Source: a virus
Length of the DNA stretch: 22,424 nucleotides
Strand: one strand, 5' to 3'
Virus record (IMG/VR): IMGVR_UViG_3300032287_002311
Span: 1-22,424 of that record
Shown: positions 12,913 to 22,136 of the stretch, one piece after another
Layout: the number at the start of each line of letters is the position of its first letter
How positions within the stretch are numbered: the stretch's first letter is position 1
Notes under the pieces: model-generated
Told to the model about the DNA's origin: nothing
The model's database searches: none
Seen by the model: the letters and a program-made list of their open reading frames with translations, nothing else
Made by a program: the position numbers and the translations under genes

Positions 12913-12939
12913 AATTTATTTTCCTGAACGGTTGCACAA

Positions 12940-12969
12940 AGTGTAGCACAGTGTGGTACGATTGTACAA
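12940..12969 (-). promoter_or_regulatory. Probable leftward promoter of the replication operon
   Basis: On the minus strand, TTGTAC (12969-12964) and TACACT (12945-12940) form a weak sigma70-like -35/-10 pair with an 18-base spacer. Initiation near 12933 would leave a leader of about 20 bases before the regulator ATG. The -10 lies inside GTGTAGCACAGTGTGGTAC (12941-12959), which resembles the palindrome at 6532-6552, so repression here is plausible. GTAC-GATT-GTAC (12956-12967 region) adds a small dyad. Confidence 0.4.
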
Positions 12970-12992
12970 CAGTTTGTAAATAAATTTTTAGC

Positions 12993-15557: not shown

Positions 15558-15579
15558 AAGCCCCGCGAGGGGCTTTTTT
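15558..15579 (+). terminator. Rightward Rho-independent terminator after the primase gene
   Basis: AAGCCCC (15558-15564), GCGA loop and GGGGCTT (15569-15575) form a stem with a stable GNRA loop, followed by a run of T to 15579. It begins 3 bases after the primase stop and its tail overlaps the end of the convergent gene at 15578. With the leftward terminator it isolates the two transcripts. Confidence 0.85.
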
Positions 15580-15793
15580 ATTGCTTCATGGCTCGGATGA
15601 TCTCAGCAGGCTCATGGGGGTCATAAAACCCAATGCCTTTGTCACGGGCATCAAACACCTTGGCCGCCTCCTCCAGCACCTGATTGCGCTGTGACGGGGA
15701 TACATAGACATCCCAATGATACGGCTGTCCACTACGCATCTTGGCTTCGTGCTCGATGCGCTCAAACTCATCGTCTTCGTCAGTATGAATCAT
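15578..15793 (-). CDS. Small acidic hypothetical protein
   Basis: A 71-residue protein with an acidic N-terminus (MIHTDEDDEFERIEHEAK), then WDVYVSPSQRNQVLEEAAKV and a C-terminal PAEIIRAMKQ helix. It has no recognised motif. The start overlaps the stop of the 43-residue ORF upstream (ATGA), so it is probably translated by coupling; GAGGA lies about 11 bases upstream. It is the last gene of the leftward small-gene block before the terminator at 15511-15538. Confidence 0.55.
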   Translation of the reverse strand: MIHTDEDDEFERIEHEAKMRSGQPYHWDVYVSPSQRNQVLEEAAKVFDARDKGIGFYDPHEPAEIIRAMKQ

Positions 15794-15921
15794 ATGGGTG
15801 CATCCTCGTAATTGTCAGGGTTGAACTTAGGAACCTTTGTACCCTTATCCAGTGGGTTTGGGAATAGGGGAAACGGCCATACGGTCGATGGTTGGTTGGG
15901 AGCCTTATAACTTTGTTTCAT
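15790..15921 (-). CDS. 43-residue Pro-rich ORF carrying the KAPN repeat
   Basis: An ORF read by hand from ATG 15921 to TGA 15790, which overlaps the next start by 4 bases. The product MKQSYKAPNQPSTVWPFPLF continues Pro- and Asn-rich, ending NYEDAPI. The coding phase is supported by the overlap and by filling an otherwise empty 170-base gap. AAGG lies about 9 bases before the ATG, inside one of the TAAGGCTCCCAACC repeats. The KAPN codons repeat the last codons of the XRE gene upstream (TKAPN-stop), so the ORF may have arisen by local duplication. Function unknown. Confidence 0.5.
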   Translation of the reverse strand: MKQSYKAPNQPSTVWPFPLFPNPLDKGTKVPKFNPDNYEDAPI

Positions 15922-15979
15922 GGTTGGGAGCCTTAATCAATGGTTGGATTCCTTAACCAACGGTTAGTTGGGAGCCTTA
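15894..15979 (-). repeat. Four copies of TAAGGCTCCCAACC
   Basis: On the minus strand the 14-base word occurs at 15979-15966 (TAAGGCTCCCAACT), 15955-15942 (TAAGGAATCCAACC), 15935-15922 (TAAGGCTCCCAACC) and 15907-15894 (TAAGGCTCCCAACC), with start-to-start distances of 24, 20 and 28 bases. Copies overlap the end of the XRE gene, the 42-base gap and the start of the 43-residue ORF. Two copies encode KAPN in different proteins. The role may be operator, RNA-level control or duplication remnant. Confidence 0.6.
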
Positions 15980-16245
15980 GTCAATTGTTTCTTAGGCCGT
16001 CCGGCGCTCTTGGTGGGAACGGCGGCGTCCGGCGGCGGCGTGAGTGCGGCCAGCACGTCAGGGGCCAGCGCTTCGAGCGTGCCCAGCACGGCCAGCAGCT
16101 GCACGGCGGCGGCGCTCGGCGCTCGTTGGCCAGCTGTCCACTTGCGAAACGTGAAAACGGGAACACCCAGCAGGCCGGCGGCCCGTGCTTCGCTCAGTGC
16201 CTGGCGATCAGTGAAGGCCAGCAGGTCGGTTTTGAATTGTGTCAT
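15964..16245 (-). CDS. XRE/HTH-type transcriptional regulator
   Basis: A 93-residue protein. Residues about 14-55 fit a helix-turn-helix of the XRE kind: DRQALSEARAAGLLGVPVFT (13-32), with the recognition helix at about 30-38 (VFTFRKWTAG), then APSAAAVQLLAVL. The tail AGRPKKQ (81-87) is an AT-hook-like minor-groove motif. GAGGATCC gives a normal ribosome-binding site before the ATG. It lies just downstream of a strong terminator, so it probably has its own promoter. Near-copies of the AACCCGCTGGGTT palindrome lie 31-80 bases upstream (16276-16286 and 16316-16325), and the TAAGG repeats overlap its 3' end. It is the best candidate for the regulator of the control region at 19.4-20.0 kb, by inference. 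Confidence 0.7.
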   Translation of the reverse strand: MTQFKTDLLAFTDRQALSEARAAGLLGVPVFTFRKWTAGQRAPSAAAVQLLAVLGTLEALAPDVLAALTPPPDAAVPTKSAGRPKKQLTKAPN

Positions 16246-16265
16246 TGGATCCTCAGAATTAGGGT

Positions 16266-16295
16266 TAAAAAAGCCCCCAGCGGGTTTGCTGGGGG
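16266..16295 (-). terminator. Rho-independent terminator of the small-gene operon
   Basis: CCCCCAGC (16274-16281) and GCTGGGGG (16288-16295) form a perfect 8-bp stem with a 6-base loop, followed on the minus strand by GCTTTTTT. It closes the leftward operon that begins at 19385. Its loop and stem contain CCCAGCGGGTT, a partial copy of the palindrome found in the control region. Confidence 0.85.
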
Positions 16296-16323
16296 TAGAT
16301 TAGGGGTTAGCCTGGCCAGCGGG

Positions 16324-16383
16324 TTATAGATCCCAGAAGGCGGCGATCAGGGCAAAAATAGCGGCGGCGATTAGGGCGCTCAT
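16324..16383 (-). CDS. 19-residue hydrophobic micro-protein
   Basis: ATG at 16383 overlaps the stop of the upstream gene (ATGA), and TAA lies at 16326-16324. The product MSALIAAAIFALIAAFWDL is one hydrophobic helix with a single acidic residue near the end, long enough to span or line a membrane. It is the last frame before the terminator at 16266-16295. Coupling by overlap is the main support. It could be a small membrane toxin or regulator, or a chance frame in Ala-rich DNA. Confidence 0.4.
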   Translation of the reverse strand: MSALIAAAIFALIAAFWDL

Positions 16384-16574
16384 GCCTGCGCCGCCGTTAA
16401 CCGTGCTTCAGCTCGGCCTTGCTCGATCAGGCGGCGGGCTTCGGTTTGAAAATCGATCCGCTCACTGGATAGCATCGAGCGCAGGCGCTGGGCCACGGCC
16501 CGGGCAGCGTCAGGGCTTCGCGCTCGCTCATACTGGAACCCAGCGTTTATGTAATCTGCTTCAGTGTGATTCAT
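16380..16574 (-). CDS. Small hypothetical protein
   Basis: A 64-residue protein from the ATG at 16574, which overlaps the preceding stop (ATGA) and has GGGAG 8 bases upstream. An in-frame ATG at 16589 lacks a ribosome-binding site. The sequence MNHTEADYINAGFQYERARS leads into an Arg/Ala/Gln-rich helical tail. It has no membrane segment and no recognised domain. It is part of the leftward small-gene operon. Confidence 0.55.
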   Translation of the reverse strand: MNHTEADYINAGFQYERARSPDAARAVAQRLRSMLSSERIDFQTEARRLIEQGRAEARLTAAQA

Positions 16575-16822
16575 CGCTCGATCTCCCATAGGTTAACGAT
16601 TCCGTCAATTGTGGCCAGCGCTTCGGCGGCGGCCCCCCGGCGCTGTTTCGCGTTCATTGTGTCGCTGTTACTCTCGGCGATGGCTTCCAGGGCGGCCACG
16701 GCCTGCCCTAGTGCCCGCTGCAGGTCGGCGATCCTGGCAAATTGTCTGGCCGTGCCTGGAAACCCTTCAGAATAGGCCAGGGCTTCGGCTTCGGTGGCCG
16801 TTAGATTTTCAAGGTTTATCAT
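16571..16822 (-). CDS. Small helical hypothetical protein
   Basis: An 83-residue protein from ATG 16822, three bases after the preceding stop. GGGA at about 10 bases upstream is a modest ribosome-binding site, and an in-frame TTG at 16837 is possible. The sequence is Ala-rich and helical (LQRALGQAVAALEAIAESNS in the middle), with NAKQRRGAAAEA near the C-terminus. No family is recognised. It overlaps the next gene by 4 bases. Confidence 0.55.
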   Translation of the reverse strand: MINLENLTATEAEALAYSEGFPGTARQFARIADLQRALGQAVAALEAIAESNSDTMNAKQRRGAAAEALATIDGIVNLWEIER

Positions 16823-16824
16823 TT

Positions 16825-17040
16825 TTAACAATCCCAATCTTCGGTAAAAATTCTAATGTTGCAGCAATCGGCGTGCGCTTTGTTCGTATGTTCGCGCACC
16901 AGGGCGCATATTGCATCGATCAATTCACGGTCGGCCAGGTCGGTCATTGTGAACATGGCGAAGGGTTCGATCTCGATCCCTTCGGGAGAAAATGCATTCC
17001 CCCGGTGAAACGTTACACGGGTTTTATCGTAGTGTGTCAT
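16825..17040 (-). CDS. Small hypothetical protein
   Basis: A 71-residue protein beginning MTHYDKTRVTFHRGNAFSPE, with three Cys in the second half (residues about 45, 59 and 60) and a fourth as the last residue. No known metal-binding spacing is evident. AAAGG within the last codons of the upstream gene precedes the ATG by 8 bases, and only three bases separate the two genes, so translation is coupled to the Cys-rich protein upstream. Function unknown. Confidence 0.55.
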   Translation of the reverse strand: MTHYDKTRVTFHRGNAFSPEGIEIEPFAMFTMTDLADRELIDAICALVREHTNKAHADCCNIRIFTEDWDC

Positions 17041-17043
17041 TGG

Positions 17044-17724
17044 TTAACCTTTCATTATTGGAATTACGCGCCGGGCCAGCGCATCAGTTACCCGGGCACG
17101 CGATCCGTGGGCGCGAAACCCGATAATTACCCGGCGATCAGCACGGGCGCAAAGCCCGCAGGTGGCGCAGGTTATATCCTCGCGGGTTTGAGCTGGGCAG
17201 ACAATGATTGTCCGGCCTTCGGGTGTCTCTGTCTTTTCCGGTGTATCCATGGGCACGATGCAAGTTAACGGGGCGCTTGATACGGCGGCCAGCGCGTCAG
17301 CTTCGCCGGCATCATCAGCGCTCAGGTTAACCGTAAAGCCCCAGTCAGTGGCGCATTGTGCCCAATATAGGGCCTCAGGGCTTTTTTTGTGGGTGTACGT
17401 GAACCCGCGGCGGCCACTGTTGGCCCGTACGATCTCACCCAAGGCGGCGGCGTCTACCTCTTCACCGGCCCCAGGCAGATCCCCGGCCACGTTGAACCGC
17501 CACAATTGGCCAGCGGGCAGGGCTTCGATTGACGCGCACAGCTCGGCCAGCGTGCCCCCTCTCTCGGCCACTTTGTCCCAGCTCATACGGGTGTAGTAAT
17601 CCTCAGCGTAACAGTCGGCCCGGTAATGGGGGCACGACTGGGGGCAGGTTTCCCGCTGGGAATAAGTAACGGGCAACGGGCCGGTTTTGCTGTTAGCAGA
17701 TTTCAAAATAAAATGGTATTTCAT
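17044..17724 (-). CDS. Cys-rich phage protein with CPxxCPxxxxxxCYA motif (DUF7227-like)
   Basis: A 226-residue protein I recognise as a widespread, uncharacterised phage family, recently named DUF7227 as far as I recall. Key features: KTGPLPVT (13-20), CPQSCPHYRADCYAE (27-41) with Cys27, Cys31 and Cys38, LWRFNVAGDLPG (74-85), GFTYTHK (107-113), VNLSADD (132-138), and a second cluster CPAQTREDITCATCGLC (176-192) with Cys176, 186, 189 and 192. Seven placed Cys suggest an Fe-S or zinc cluster. The CxxxCx6CYAE part resembles the gp37/gp68-like (DUF5131) phage family, where radical-SAM relatedness has been proposed; that link is inference. It is the largest protein of the small-gene block and overlaps the upstream acidic ORF (ATGA). 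Confidence 0.7.
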   Translation of the reverse strand: MKYHFILKSANSKTGPLPVTYSQRETCPQSCPHYRADCYAEDYYTRMSWDKVAERGGTLAELCASIEALPAGQLWRFNVAGDLPGAGEEVDAAALGEIVRANSGRRGFTYTHKKSPEALYWAQCATDWGFTVNLSADDAGEADALAAVSSAPLTCIVPMDTPEKTETPEGRTIIVCPAQTREDITCATCGLCARADRRVIIGFRAHGSRARVTDALARRVIPIMKG

Positions 17725-17885
17725 GATTCATCGCTCCCGTCGTCGGTGTCGGCTTCGGGTTCGCTTTCATCGTACGGGGCCTCGGGATCCCCAGGCAGAT
17801 AGCGCAGCGAGGTTAGCAGGCGGCGCTTAGTTGCTCGGTCTTCATTGGCCAGCGCTTCGGCCTCATCGTCGTATTCGTAGTGCAT
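17721..17885 (-). CDS. 54-residue acidic protein upstream of the Cys-rich gene
   Basis: A short ORF read by hand, ATG 17885 to TGA 17721, overlapping the Cys-rich gene start by 4 bases. GAGGTAA lies 7 bases before the ATG. The product starts MHYEYDDEAEALANEDRATK, has a basic middle (KRRLLTSLRYL), and ends in a strongly acidic tail (EADTDDGSDES). Acidic small proteins of phages often mimic DNA or bind basic partners, but nothing here proves that. The tight coupling to the Cys-rich protein suggests a shared process. Confidence 0.6.
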   Translation of the reverse strand: MHYEYDDEAEALANEDRATKRRLLTSLRYLPGDPEAPYDESEPEADTDDGSDES

Positions 17886-17888
17886 GGT

Positions 17889-18167
17889 TTACCTCACGTT
17901 AATAATTTGAACATGGTTTCTCAGAAACCGGGCGGGATCCGTGGCGTTCAGCTCAGCGGCGATACTATCGGCGGCGATATCCTTAATCCAGCCGTGGCCG
18001 TACCAGTTGCCGGCGTTGCCCTGCTTGTCCAGGGTGAACCAGTTTTCACCCCATTGAACCTCAATAAAAGTGTGGCCAGCATCGGCCAGCTCGGCGCAGC
18101 GCTTAAAAATCTGGGCTTTGCTGGGCTTGCGGCCCTTGAATTCGATTAGCTTAGGTGTGTGATCCAT
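17889..18167 (-). CDS. Hypothetical small protein
   Basis: A 92-residue protein with an aromatic-rich middle (FIEVQWGENWFTLDKQGNAG, then WYGHGW) suggesting a small beta-rich fold, and basic residues in the N-terminal KGRKPSKAQIFKR. Its stop lies 3 bases before the acidic ORF, and its last codons supply that gene's GAGG. A GGGGCAGG stretch precedes the ATG. I do not recognise the family. Confidence 0.55.
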   Translation of the reverse strand: MDHTPKLIEFKGRKPSKAQIFKRCAELADAGHTFIEVQWGENWFTLDKQGNAGNWYGHGWIKDIAADSIAAELNATDPARFLRNHVQIINVR

Positions 18168-18177
18168 GGCCTGCCCC

Positions 18178-18477
18178 TTATGCTTTCCGAGCGCTCACGC
18201 GCACGGTGTAGAACGCGGCGCCGGTGGCCGTGTGCGCCGTGATCAACTGGCGGGACGGCGCAAAGTGTTCAGCGATGGATCTCCAATCGGTTACATCGCG
18301 GCCAGGGCAGAAGCTAACGGCGGCCCGGTGTAACTGGCCTTCAATAGCGGCCTGGCCTGCTTCGATCAGCTGGGCCTTGATCTGATCCTCTTCGGCCTTC
18401 AAGTTGGCGATCTGGGCTTTGATCAGTGCCAAGCGATCAACGGCGGCGGCGAGTAGAACGGGGTTTTCGTTTTTCAT
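18178..18477 (-). CDS. Small phage protein with N-terminal coiled coil
   Basis: A 99-residue protein. Residues 14-45 form a likely coiled coil (LALIKAQIANLKAEEDQIKA), followed by GQLHRAAVSF and a C-terminal part with WRSIAEHFAPSRQLITAHT (about 66-84). This arrangement is familiar from many phage genomes as a small protein of unknown function with a SRQLI-x-AHT segment. GAGAGGG precedes the ATG by about 7 bases, and the ATG overlaps the preceding TAA by one base. Confidence 0.6.
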   Translation of the reverse strand: MKNENPVLLAAAVDRLALIKAQIANLKAEEDQIKAQLIEAGQAAIEGQLHRAAVSFCPGRDVTDWRSIAEHFAPSRQLITAHTATGAAFYTVRVSARKA

Positions 18478-18764
18478 TATGCGGCCCTCTCGATAGCAGC
18501 ACGGGCGAGCTTCACGGCGTCAACGATCTCGCCGGTTTTCTCAAGATCTGGGCAGTGCTCGAGCATGGCCAGCAGGGCGGCCAGCAGATCAGGGGCGGCG
18601 GCCATCAGGCGGGCATTGTGCAGGGCGTCGGCGCTCGTGCTGCGCTTGTCTCCCTTGACTTTGGCCAGGGGCGCGAAACCCCCAGATTGTGCAGTGACGT
18701 TGAATTCTCCACTTCGGATAGCAGGCCGAGCGAACCAGGGGCCGGGGGTGTGTTTCAGTTTCAT
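18477..18764 (-). CDS. HTPGPW-type conserved phage protein
   Basis: A 95-residue protein with the signature HTPGPWFA near the N-terminus (5-12) and the ARLMAAAPDLLAALLAMLEH helix (51-70). Both are hallmarks of a very common phage and prophage protein family without an assigned function. GGAGAATC precedes the ATG at normal spacing in a leader that also contains three GTAAC units (18780-18798). It lies within the leftward small-gene operon between two coiled-coil or membrane proteins. The family call is firm; the role is unknown. Confidence 0.75.
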   Translation of the reverse strand: MKLKHTPGPWFARPAIRSGEFNVTAQSGGFAPLAKVKGDKRSTSADALHNARLMAAAPDLLAALLAMLEHCPDLEKTGEIVDAVKLARAAIERAA

Positions 18765-18800
18765 GATTTGATTCTCCAGGGTTACGGTTACGGGTTACAG
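18765..18800 (-). repeat. GTAAC-repeat leader upstream of the HTPGPW gene
   Basis: On the minus strand the leader reads TGTAACCC-GTAACC-GTAACCC followed by TGGAGAATCAAATCATGAAA. Similar leaders precede two other genes: 18959-18936 (TGTAACCCTTGGAGAATCGA) and 19417-19386 (GTAACTTGTAACTGTAACTT, then GGAG). The three share (GTAAC)1-3 plus YTTGGAGAA. They look like a reused translation-initiation cassette. Confidence 0.5.
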
Positions 18801-18935
18801 TGAAAACAAAACGATCAGGACAAAGCCCAGGCCGGCCAGCAAAGCCACGGCCCCGGCAATGATGGCCAGATCTGAGGGTTCCTCAGCGGGCACGCGCTCA
18901 GGGTTTAATTCGATGTAGTGTTGATTGTGTTTCAT
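18795..18935 (-). CDS. 46-residue single-TM protein
   Basis: A short ORF read by hand from ATG 18935 to TAA 18795. The first 22 residues are polar and acidic (MKHNQHYIELNPERVPAEEP). Residues about 23-46 are one hydrophobic helix (LAIIAGAVALLAGLGFVLIV and onward) that ends at the stop. TTGGAGAATC gives a good ribosome-binding site, nearly identical to that of the next gene. A tail-anchored inner-membrane protein with the N-terminus in the cytoplasm is likely. Function unknown. Confidence 0.6.
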   Translation of the reverse strand: MKHNQHYIELNPERVPAEEPSDLAIIAGAVALLAGLGFVLIVLFSL

Positions 18936-18960
18936 GATTCGATTCTCCAAGGGTTACAGT

Positions 18961-18981
18961 GGCCAGGCGCGAAGCCTGGCC
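18961..18981. repeat. Perfect hairpin in intergenic gap
   Basis: GGCCAGGC (18961-18968) and GCCTGGCC (18974-18981) form an 8-bp perfect stem with a 5-base loop, between the stop at 18989 and the ATG at 18935. There is no T-run on either side, so it is not an intrinsic terminator. It may stabilise or pause the leftward transcript. Confidence 0.55.
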
Positions 18982-18988
18982 GGGTTGT

Positions 18989-19180
18989 TTATCGGGTGAG
19001 GGCTTCGCGCTCGGCGGCGGCCAGCTCGGTCAGTGCGCGATTGATCACGCCCTGCATGGCTTCGATGCTTGACGCATCACGCGCTTCGCGCTCGATTGTG
19101 CTCAGGGCCAGCTTGCGAGCTTTGGCGATCTCGTTGGCCTTGTGCAGTGCGATCAATGTGGCGGGGTTGTTTAGGTTCAT
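18989..19180 (-). CDS. Small helical hypothetical protein
   Basis: A 63-residue, Ala/Glu/Arg-rich, fully helical protein (ALHKANEIAKARKLALSTIE in the first half, INRALTELAAAEREALTR at the end). GGGAG, formed by the last codons of the preceding gene, stands about 10 bases before the ATG. A short coiled-coil dimer is the likely form. No family or function is recognised. Confidence 0.55.
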   Translation of the reverse strand: MNLNNPATLIALHKANEIAKARKLALSTIEREARDASSIEAMQGVINRALTELAAAEREALTR

Positions 19181-19184
19181 GATC

Positions 19185-19385
19185 TCACTCTCCCACGTAC
19201 ATCAGGCAACCGTTGCGCATTGTCAGCTCGCCGCTGCTTCCAGCTCCCAGATCCTTGATTAGATCCAAGATCTCGCGCTGGGTGCGCTTGCTGCCTGCAC
19301 GGTGAATAATGGCCACAGTGCGCAGCAGTGCGCTTCTACCGTGTGGCTTTGCTCTCTCGATCTGGGCTTGCTCAAATTTTGTCAT
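19185..19385 (-). CDS. First gene of the leftward small-gene operon, hypothetical
   Basis: A 66-residue basic protein (MTKFEQAQIERAKPHGRSAL, then RAGSKRTQREILDLIKDLGA). The middle resembles a short helix-turn-helix or winged element, but it is too short and degenerate to assign. TTGGAG precedes the ATG. It is the first gene after a strong leftward promoter (19472-19445) with a leader of about 50 bases, the position often held by an early regulator or host-takeover protein. Confidence 0.55.
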   Translation of the reverse strand: MTKFEQAQIERAKPHGRSALLRTVAIIHRAGSKRTQREILDLIKDLGAGSSGELTMRNGCLMYVGE

Positions 19386-19444: not shown

Positions 19445-19472
19445 ATTGTAACCCAGTGGGTGAGCTTGTCAA
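19445..19472 (-). promoter_or_regulatory. Strong leftward sigma70-type promoter
   Basis: On the minus strand, TTGACA (19472-19467, perfect -35) and TACAAT (19450-19445, five of six) are separated by 16 bases. Initiation near 19438 gives a leader of about 50 bases to the ATG at 19385. The spacer is filled by the dyad AACCCAGTGGGTGA (19450-19463), one of the palindromes of the region, so a bound repressor would block RNA polymerase directly. Confidence 0.7.
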
Positions 19473-20004
19473 GCACAATCGATAAATTATTTACTAGGTG
19501 CTTTCCCTAACCCTCTGGGTTTCCCTGCTTCCCTTGGTGCGTCAATTGTGACTTACAGAAGGGAACGGGTTTCAGGATTTCCGGATTTCTTGTGCTGTTT
19601 CAAAAAGTATCAATCGGCCCCCTCGCCTGCGCGATGTCACAATTGACGCACTGGCCCCCGATCCCGCGAACCTGCGAACCCGCTGGGTTATTCCCTCACC
19701 CGCTGGGTTCCCGTGCCCATGGCCTGCGATCCCGCGAACCCGCTGGGTTTTGTGGCCACTGATTCACCCAGCGGGTAACATGGCCGCATCGATTCACCGG
19801 CGGCGGCCTGCGCCTAAGATCCACGGCGGCCAGCGATTCACGGCGGCGCGATGGCCAGCGGCCCGCGATGGCCGGCGGCGCAAAGCAGGATCCGTGCCAG
19901 TTGCGCGATGGGGCCGGGTAGGGCCGATGGCCGAGGGGGCCAAGACTGGGAGGTATCACGAACAATTTTTTATTTTTTTAAATTAACCCGTTACCCAATG
20001 GGTT
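19450..20004. repeat. Array of AACCCGCTGGGTT palindromes
   Basis: A short dyad with ACCC and GGGT arms recurs at 19450-19463 (AACCCAGTGGGTGA), 19509-19521 (AACCCTCTGGGTT), 19677-19689 (AACCCGCTGGGTT), 19697-19709 (CACCCGCTGGGTT), 19737-19749 (AACCCGCTGGGTT), 19765-19778 (CACCCAGCGGGTAA) and 19991-20004 (TTACCCAATGGGTT). The copies at 19677 and 19737 are both preceded by GATCCCGCGAACC (19660-19672 and 19728-19740). Arms are conserved and centres vary, as for a dimeric protein site. Spacing is irregular, unlike CRISPR. Confidence 0.75.
19537..19651. repeat. Perfect 16-bp inverted repeat pair
   Basis: GTGCGTCAATTGTGAC at 19537-19552 is the exact reverse complement of GTCACAATTGACGCAC at 19636-19651. 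The arms are 83 bases apart. Each contains CAATTG. They could form a cruciform base, be paired protein sites, or mark ends of a lost element. No gene lies between them. Confidence 0.75.
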
Positions 20005-20018
20005 CCGCTATCTCACAG

Positions 20019-20047
20019 TTGCACACATCCCAAAACCCCGCTATGAT
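20019..20047 (+). promoter_or_regulatory. Rightward sigma70-type promoter for terminase genes
   Basis: TTGCAC (20019-20024) and TATGAT (20042-20047) have the ideal 17-base spacing. Initiation near 20054 would give a very short leader to the ATG at 20058, or about 46 bases to the ATG at 20100. The palindrome TTACCCAATGGGTT (19991-20004) lies 14 bases upstream of the -35, so the same regulator could act on both divergent promoters. Confidence 0.6.
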
Positions 20048-20057
20048 CCACAGCACT

Positions 20058-20609
20058 ATGGAATCATTAAATCCCGATCCTGTAGGCGCAAATGTCACAA
20101 TGACCAGCGACAACAAAATCGAAATACCAGACTGGTTAGACCCTGCGCCTCGCACGCTTGCCAAATCACCCCCTGCGGTGAAGTCATTGGTATTGGCTCA
20201 GTATGAGCATGTATTCATGCGAGTCATCGATGAGGTTGCCCACGGCAAGTCCTTGTCGCAGGTGCTCAATGATGACCAGCGGCACATCGACTACAACGAC
20301 TTTTACCGGTGGATCAAGAAAGACCCGACCCGTAAGCAGTTGTTTGATGAAGCCCAAGAGATGCGCACCGAGTTCATGGCCGGCGAGATCATAGAGATTG
20401 CCGATGCGGATGACACACTCGAAGATGTGAACCGTAGCCGCCTAAAGATCGACACTCGCAAGTGGCTCATGGGTGCGCACAATCGCAAGAAGTACGGAGC
20501 GACCACTAACATTGAGATGACTGGTGGGATCTCGATACTGGCAGCCATCGAAGCGGCGAATGCCAGGGTGATTGATTTGGCCGATGTAACTGATATAGAG
20601 GCGAAATAA
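20058..20609 (+). CDS. Terminase small subunit
   Basis: The product is 183 residues from the ATG at 20058. It matches phage small terminase subunits of the kind found in P22/Sf6-like and related phages: YNDFYRWIKKDPTRKQLFDE supplies the recognition helix of an N-terminal HTH that binds the packaging site, and a helical part with DVNRSRLKIDTRKWLMGAHN follows. The start is uncertain. No candidate has a strong Shine-Dalgarno. ATG 20043 lies inside the -10 of the promoter, ATG 20058 is just after the likely transcription start, and ATG 20100 has only a distant AGG. The frame is open further left to 19851, but that part lies in the non-coding repeats. It directly precedes the large subunit. Confidence 0.8.
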   Translation: MESLNPDPVGANVTMTSDNKIEIPDWLDPAPRTLAKSPPAVKSLVLAQYEHVFMRVIDEVAHGKSLSQVLNDDQRHIDYNDFYRWIKKDPTRKQLFDEAQEMRTEFMAGEIIEIADADDTLEDVNRSRLKIDTRKWLMGAHNRKKYGATTNIEMTGGISILAAIEAANARVIDLADVTDIEAK

Positions 20610-22136
20610 ATGCAGACGTTAAAGTTTTCGCCGGAAGATGAGCAGGTCTTGATGAGCCAACTGTGGAGTTCGCAGATTGCAGACAACCCAGAGACATTTG
20701 TGCTTTTTGCGTTTCCATGGGGGCAGAAGAATACCCCACTCGAACACTTCAAAGGCCCGCGAGCTTGGCAGCGCAGGACACTTCGTAAGATTGCCGATCA
20801 CATCAAGGCCAACCGTGGACAGATGGACATGGATGCACTTCGGCGTGCTGTGTCGTCTGGTCGTGGTATTGGGAAATCTGCTCTGGTGTCGTGGTTGATC
20901 TTGTGGATGCTGACCACTCGGATAGGCAGTTCGGTCATTGTTTCGGCCAACAGTGAGAACCAGCTGCGCACGGTGACCTGGGGTGAGCTGACTAAGTGGG
21001 CCACCATGGCGATCAACTCGCACTGGTGGGAGCCAAGCGCTACCAAACTCGTGCCGGCGCAGTGGCTGACTGATCTGGTTGAGCGGGATCTGAAGAAGGG
21101 TACTCGTTACTGGGCCGCGGAGGGGAAGCTGTGGAGTGAAGAGAACCCAGACTCATACGCCGGTGTCCACAATCACGATGGCATGATGGTAATTTTTGAC
21201 GAAGCGTCAGGTATTCCAGACACTATTTGGTCGGTGGCTTCAGGCTTCTTTACCGAGAAGATTTTGGACAGGTATTGGTTTGCGTTCAGTAACCCACGGC
21301 GCAACACCGGGTACTTCTTCGAGTGTTTCAACGCCAAACGAGACTTTTGGGACACTGAAATCATTGATGCCCGCACAGTCGAGGGCACGGACAAGGGTAT
21401 CTACGACCAGATTATTGCCGAATACGGTGAAGACTCCATACAAGCACGCATCGAGGTCTATGGCGAGTTCCCCGCCGCCGGCGAAGACCAGTTCATCTCG
21501 CCCGTTGTGGTCGAGGATGCGTTCAAACGGCCTAAGTACAAAGACCTGACAGCTCCGATTGTGATCGGTGTTGACCCAGCCCGTGGGGGTATGGACAGCA
21601 CAGTCATTGTGGTGCGCCAAGGGCGTGACTTGGTGGCCATCAAACGCTTCAAAGGTGAAGATACCATGAGCGTTGTCGGTCATGTCATCGAGGCCATTGA
21701 AGAATACAAGCCTGTTTTGACCGTGATTGACGAGGGTGGCCTTGGATACGGGATACTTGACAGATTGACCGAGCAGCGGTACAAAGTGCGCGGGGTTAAC
21801 TTTGCTTGGAAAGCGAAAAACCCCATAATGTGGGGTAACAAAAGAGCTGAGATGTGGGGTATGATGCGCGAATGGCTCAGGTCAGCCTCGATTCCTACCG
21901 ACAGACAGCTCAAAGCTGACCTCACCGGGCCAACTAAAAAGCCCAATTCCGCAGGTACTATCTTTTTGGAAGGTAAGAAGGAAATGAAAGCACGAGGTAT
22001 CGCTTCACCTGATGCAGCCGATGCTTTGGCCGTTACTTTTGCCTTTCCTGTGGCTCATAGAGAATATGCTGCAAAGGAAAGAACCCGCGCATATTCTGAC
22101 CGCACGGCAGTTGCAACTTCATGGATGGGAAGTTAG
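20610..22136 (+). CDS. Terminase large subunit (packaging ATPase-nuclease)
   Basis: A 508-residue packaging motor protein. ATPase domain: adenine-binding WQRRTLRKI (53-61), Walker A SGRGIGKS (83-90), Walker B MVIFDE (193-198) with catalytic Glu198, coupling motif FSNPRRNTG (226-234), then VYGEFP (283-288). Nuclease domain with RNase H fold: GVDPARGGMDST (320-331) with Asp322, TVIDEGGLG (371-379) with Asp374, and ASPDAADALA (465-474) with Asp468 and Asp471. All catalytic motifs are intact. It cuts concatemeric DNA and pumps it into the prohead through the portal. It starts directly after the small-subunit TAA, with GAGG 9 bases upstream inside that gene. Confidence 0.95.
   Translation: MQTLKFSPEDEQVLMSQLWSSQIADNPETFVLFAFPWGQKNTPLEHFKGPRAWQRRTLRKIADHIKANRGQMDMDALRRAVSSGRGIGKSALVSWLILWMLTTRIGSSVIVSANSENQLRTVTWGELTKWATMAINSHWWEPSATKLVPAQWLTDLVERDLKKGTRYWAAEGKLWSEENPDSYAGVHNHDGMMVIFDEASGIPDTIWSVASGFFTEKILDRYWFAFSNPRRNTGYFFECFNAKRDFWDTEIIDARTVEGTDKGIYDQIIAEYGEDSIQARIEVYGEFPAAGEDQFISPVVVEDAFKRPKYKDLTAPIVIGVDPARGGMDSTVIVVRQGRDLVAIKRFKGEDTMSVVGHVIEAIEEYKPVLTVIDEGGLGYGILDRLTEQRYKVRGVNFAWKAKNPIMWGNKRAEMWGMMREWLRSASIPTDRQLKADLTGPTKKPNSAGTIFLEGKKEMKARGIASPDAADALAVTFAFPVAHREYAAKERTRAYSDRTAVATSWMGS

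Follow-up and report, generated by a model that had tools for sequence, protein, structure and literature searches.

The window analysed here is the whole of the virus record IMGVR_UViG_3300032287_002311, a 22.4-kb contig (22,424 nucleotides) that is partial and covers about 22 of 37 kb. The record carries a terminase, a prim-pol and a DNA replication module; its nearest annotated relative is DSL-LC05, a 37.6-kb metagenome-assembled phage. Small genes form a leftward operon (15578–19385, minus strand), which was taken as early from gene content only and which includes a gene for a 93-aa XRE/MqsA-like HTH protein (15964–16245, minus strand; hereafter XRE). A DUF7227 protein conserved in many relatives is encoded in the same operon at 17044–17724 (Pfam E = 2e-74). 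The rightward operon starts with the gene for the terminase small subunit, terS (Sf6 type; 20058–20609, plus strand), and continues with the terminase large subunit (20610–22136, plus strand). A gap of 672 bp separates the leftward ORF 19185–19385 from the terS start at 20058, and this gap holds all seven copies of a short dyad.

Exact copies of the dyad ACCCNNNGGGT start at 19451, 19510, 19678, 19698, 19738, 19766 and 19993; outside the gap, the word was found only three more times in 21.7 kb (2813, 14544 and 15115), each time within an ORF. When the gap was shuffled 3000 times with dinucleotides preserved, ACCC-N3-GGGT occurred on average 0.027 times and at most twice, against the seven copies seen, and the top 4-3-4 dyad, whatever its sequence, had no more than four copies in any shuffle. 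The seven-copy array reported by the first-pass annotation is thus real, and its description of fixed arms around variable centres was confirmed (AGT, TCT, GCT three times, AGC and AAT between ACCC and GGGT). The dimensions that it gave for the dyad had to be corrected: with a spacer of 3 nt, the conserved core comes to 11 bp. Its proposal of a dimeric regulator binding at the dyads gains support from the sequence comparisons below.

Dyad 1 (ACCCAGTGGGT, 19451–19461) occupies the −35/−10 spacer of the leftward promoter PL, and dyad 2 (ACCCTCTGGGT, 19510–19520) lies upstream of PL. The middle of the array consists of dyads 3, 4 and 5 (19678–19688, 19698–19708 and 19738–19748, each ACCCGCTGGGT) and dyad 6 (ACCCAGCGGGT, 19766–19776), and the centre of dyad 7 (ACCCAATGGGT, 19993–20003) precedes the −10 start of the rightward promoter PR by 44 bp (about −56). 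The dyads were listed without strand. Spacings within the array are irregular, and helical phasing across the whole array is weak (R about 0.25).

Relatives were gathered via the terminase large subunit, which yielded 80 related viral contigs, and viral contigs were also scanned with single XRE proteins as queries. A de novo search for dyads in the upstream stretch ranked this same dyad first in about half of the 80 contigs, where it has 4 to 11 copies, and its position in these uncultured podoviruses matches the locus in the window. At loci with an XRE gene, dyad density was 4.64 per kb in the control stretch versus 0.074 per kb elsewhere. Two outcomes had been named in advance as speaking against an operator array, namely that the word is equally frequent in coding regions or that related phages lack it at the locus; neither was observed: outside the control region the word is rarer by a factor of about 60, and the dyad is present in the same place in relatives. 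Pooled sites gave ACCC-A-N-T-GGGT with a flanking preference near background; since the search pattern preset the arms, information comes from the centre and flanks alone.

PL (19445–19472, minus strand) consists of TTGACA (19472–19467), a 16-bp spacer and TACAAT (19450–19445); in the sigma-70 scan it matched 11/12 consensus bases and reads TTGACA-AGCTC-ACCCACTGGGT-TACAAT, so that one copy does lie inside a promoter, as had been noted from the window alone. PL is conserved in relatives. At 32/44 non-redundant loci, the top leftward sigma-70 site and a dyad overlap, where 8.2 such loci were expected. The distance from the dyad centre to the −10 start was 6 bp at 16 loci, 17 bp at seven and 27 bp at four, which places the dyad, depending on the offset, within the spacer, over the −35 or barely abutting the −35; a degenerate dyad was present in the spacer at some of the 12 remaining loci (L023, L029, L030 and L033). 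The −35 of PL matched the consensus at 5.9/6 positions in relatives. This layout fits a repressor that would block polymerase.

The terminase promoter PR (20019–20047, plus strand) consists of TTGCAC (20019–20024), a 17-bp spacer and TATGAT (20042–20047), and dyad 7 is the copy that had been placed just upstream of the opposite promoter, 44 bp before the −10 start. In 37 non-redundant loci, the distance from the centre of the last dyad to the −10 of PR was 32–35, 42–46, 53–54 or 63 bp. These offsets are periodic at 10.5 bp (Rayleigh R = 0.86, p about 1e-12, which is overstated since loci were taken as independent). Among near relatives the dyad is found at different whole turns (44 bp in the window, 34 in L008, 32 in L009 and 54 in L010), so moves of the dyad at PR have occurred repeatedly. 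The −35 of PR matched the consensus at 3.6/6 positions (null 2.5), and an extended −10 was present in 32/37. The phased upstream dyad, together with the weak −35 and the extended −10, fits an activator-dependent promoter; the phasing would indicate contact on one face and cannot by itself separate activation from repression. The terS start CACTATGGA (20042–20066) lies 9–10 nt past the conserved −10 in nearly all relatives, which suggests that the late mRNA is leaderless or near-leaderless.

Two candidates for the protein that binds the dyads had been put forward, XRE and a ribbon-helix-helix (RHH) protein. At least three dyads were present at 28/32 loci with an XRE gene and at 0/12 without (terminase-selected loci with enough flank; Fisher p = 9e-8, not corrected for relatedness). 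L016, L025 and L033 carry the XRE gene, yet have fewer than three strict dyads at the expected place. The presence of the RHH gene mirrors that of XRE exactly (17/17 records), so presence alone cannot pick the binder, and covariation was used instead. The XRE recognition helix reads VPVFTxRKW. Lys at position 35 goes with C at the second arm position (ACCC arms), whereas His (RHW; L021, L031 and L088–L095) and Asn (RNW; L034, L119, L120 and L123) go mostly with G arms. Sites of the H and N types are AGCC-N3-GGCT plus mixed sites, mixed arms being kept in some of these phages, and in L121 and L122 the arms have drifted to further variants. L124 (IHTLRKW) has C arms and L034 (IHTLRNW) has G arms; at the loci with Ala at position 35 (L073 and L075) no dyads were found. 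XRE and the dyad word have therefore changed together in related phages. On the XRE tree (80 columns, poorly resolved), the H group and the N group correspond to one change each, and the two switches may not be fully independent of each other. For the RHH protein no such covariation was seen: its DNA-contact strand, TKFLTVRLTP, is identical in the window, with ACCC arms, and in the L031 phage, with AGCC arms, and it was rejected as binder. XRE is the best-supported candidate and probably binds the dyads, as judged by covariation of arms and recognition helix, and Lys35 is likely the specificity residue. An inverted repeat upstream of the RHH gene (GTTGCACA...TGTACAAC, 12931–12970) is kept in relatives and is probably the operator of the RHH protein itself.

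Structure prediction for XRE gave a confident five-helix HTH (pLDDT about 94 over the HTH), with Lys35 in the recognition helix, followed by a disordered basic tail; beyond these, the model contained no C-terminal oligomerisation or cleavage domain. The tail carries GRPKK, which we take to resemble an AT-hook. The Foldseek neighbours of the model were HigA2, C.AhdI and MqsA (TM about 0.5), none of them significant (all E-values >0.03). In a PDB profile search, the best match was the MqsA HTH (3fmy; E = 1.2e-5, gapless), and this alignment puts Lys35 on Arg101 and Phe31 on Asn97. Both MqsA residues are reported to be important for its DNA binding, and the MqsA site is ACCT-N3-AGGT (PMC5422877). 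The model and the 3fmy match place XRE among the lambda-repressor-like regulators, in the MqsA HTH branch. It shares with MqsA the HTH profile, the Lys35/Arg101 contact position and a 4-3-4 palindrome (ACCC-N3-GGGT and ACCT-N3-AGGT) (PMC5422877). Unlike MqsA, it has a different arm base and an array in a phage control region, and its 93 aa lack the zinc N-terminal toxin-binding domain. The Pfam MqsA match was sub-threshold and confined to the HTH part, and no MqsR partner was identified, which sets XRE apart from the MqsA family proper.

The XRE gene lies about 3.2 kb into the leftward operon, right behind a strong intrinsic terminator (16274–16295, minus strand; CCCCCAGC-AAACCC-GCTGGGGG-CTTTTTT). 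Two partial copies of the dyad had been described as flanking this gene and could have served as autoregulatory operators; both are on its 5′ side, that at 16276–16286 is the 3′ arm of the terminator (16295–16274) and that at 16316–16325 is half a site only. Within 170 bp upstream of the XRE genes, no dyad was found in any, and a terminator was present in most, so autoregulation through these copies was rejected. The terminator is kept in most ACCC-type relatives, where its stems differ in sequence yet still pair; upstream of the XRE gene it is absent from the H and N types. It ends roughly 30 bp before the XRE start codon, which leaves no room for a promoter, and read-through is thus the likely source of XRE protein.

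These observations are best accommodated, with a probability of about 0.65, by an early-off/late-on switch in which XRE would repress PL and activate PR, passing expression from the leftward genes to the terminase and virion genes. An XRE dimer would sit on each 11-bp dyad, its two recognition helices taking one ACCC arm each, and the second position of the arm would be read by Lys35. At dyad 1 it would occlude RNA polymerase from the strong PL, and because the XRE gene is in the leftward operon driven from PL, this would close a negative feedback loop. At dyad 7, on a fixed helix face upstream of the weak PR, it would recruit polymerase, so that the early, leftward genes give way to the late ones, for terminase and virion. 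Dyads in the middle probably serve to load extra dimers or to aid cooperation between the ends. With a terminator before its gene, XRE would be made by read-through, late or at a low level, which would build a delay into the circuit. The operator array is real and conserved, and the case for repression to the left and activation to the right, although built from sequence, is strong. As a wider variant of this scheme, XRE on all seven dyads might fold the 550 bp into one nucleoprotein switch that jointly controls early transcription and two other conserved elements, an origin-like one (19537–19651) and one near the terminase (19915–19981), and lineages would be insulated from one another through a joint change of one recognition residue and every operator; we regard this as unlikely.

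A small XRE-type HTH with operators in divergent promoters is also what an immunity system would look like, with XRE as a prophage repressor that silences both promoters. The DSL-LC05 homologue is annotated as 'repressor protein C', and arm specificity varies among relatives as in immunity groups. However, tyrosine integrase, serine recombinase and partition genes (PF00589, PF00239 and PF13614, the last for ParA) were found in 0/22 related records, mostly of 36–42 kb, a result that is weak where records are partial. DSL-LC05 is virulent as predicted by its authors with BACPHLIP (PMC10611076), and a genome scan returned no close prophage, the sole close match being a 3.2-kb MAG contig. Since integrase, recombinase and ParA were not found in these records, the predicted lifestyle is virulent and the one genome match is short, a lysogeny repressor is not the leading reading; the lack of oligomerisation and cleavage domains in XRE, and a dyad 7 that lies upstream of PR with no overlap, also speak against it. 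Neither lysogeny nor partition is indicated, no integrase or ParA being found, and the immunity reading is considered unlikely.

XRE might instead be a repressor in both directions: it would occlude PL and lower PR through a same-face or looped complex, shutting off both operons late. The overlap at PL is clear, dyads 450–550 bp apart could loop, and looped repression likewise depends on helical phase. The two ends differ, however, in that the dyad at PL targets the promoter core and the one at PR avoids it; the phasing was measured relative to the −10 of PR itself, and the −35 of PR is weak and its −10 extended, which makes this reading rather improbable. The first-pass annotation had also offered an iteron-based origin, in which the dyads would be replication initiator sites or serve handcuffing control. 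Some spacings in the repeat array are indeed regular (27 bp recurs in L035, L061 and L081), an AT tract lies at 19965–19985, and the conserved element 19537–19651 is situated among the dyads. Nevertheless, the dyads are locked to promoter elements and irregularly spaced within the array, the AT tract and its GC-rich neighbour persist in relatives without dyads, and the putative binder has a regulator-type HTH. No DnaA box was matched and GC skew had no clear switch at the array (partial record), and an origin is very unlikely to explain the dyads.

The proposed switch has parallels in known systems. Lambda CI and Cro and the C-proteins of restriction systems are small XRE-fold dimers that act on dyad operators, repressing one promoter and activating another. 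The window system differs from these in that no cooperativity domain was seen, the site sequence is another and the sites extend over 550 bp. Protein p4 of phi29 represses the early promoters A2c and A2b by overlap with the −35 and activates the late promoter A3 from an upstream site (PMC3100819), and both arrangements recur here in the dyads overlapping the core of PL and in the upstream dyad phased at about 10.5 bp to PR. Common to both systems are a single phage-coded regulator and multiple inverted-repeat sites that lie between the early and the late promoters (PMC3100819). The array may accordingly work like the p4 switch but is not a member of the p4 family: p4 has another fold, a longer site (CTTTTT-15 bp-AAAATG), A-tract readout and a need for the nucleoid protein p6, whereas the window has a small XRE HTH, an 11-bp dyad and seven sites, and no homology is claimed. 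With the mycobacteriophage stoperators and the Cluster A immunity repressor it shares many sites and a motif that covaries with the repressor between phages (PMC6550527). Stoperators function in temperate phages, where these asymmetric sites of 13 bp are scattered across the genome (PMC6550527); the window dyads, unlike these, are symmetric and confined to one control region, and no integrase was found.

The assignment would supply phrog_2104, listed as unknown in phage databases, with a putative function, a DNA target and a residue that likely sets specificity, in a group of uncultured freshwater podoviruses that lack a genetic system. The K, H and N forms of the regulator occur naturally, each alongside its own operators, and together offer a specificity series ready for use; shifts of the late-promoter dyad by whole turns would predict activation directly.

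Further conserved elements were noted in the same stretch. A conserved element, which in the window lies at 19537–19651 between dyads 2 and 3, was found at 78 fetched loci; its ends are inverted (TGTGAC/GTCACA; GTGCGTCAATTGTGAC / GTCACAATTGACGCAC) and its interior is conserved too. A structured RNA was considered and rejected: on either strand, single-sequence folding beat shuffles no more than moderately (z = −2.6 and −2.1), an Rfam search of the element returned no family at gathering score, and the right arm drifts in several relatives without matching changes in the left arm. With arms that drift independently in some relatives, a DNA element, perhaps an origin, seems likelier than RNA. 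Near the terminase, GGGTAGGGCCGACGG...CACGAACAATTTTTTATTTTTT (19915–19981) recurs upstream of the terminase at 116 loci, among them those of a group that has neither XRE nor dyads; it is thus independent of the array and is possibly a packaging site or an origin. Relatives without the XRE gene have another array in the same place, TGACAATATTGCCAAT with a 26-bp period (L051, 4680–5070; also L049, L050 and L067), which presumably serves another regulator.
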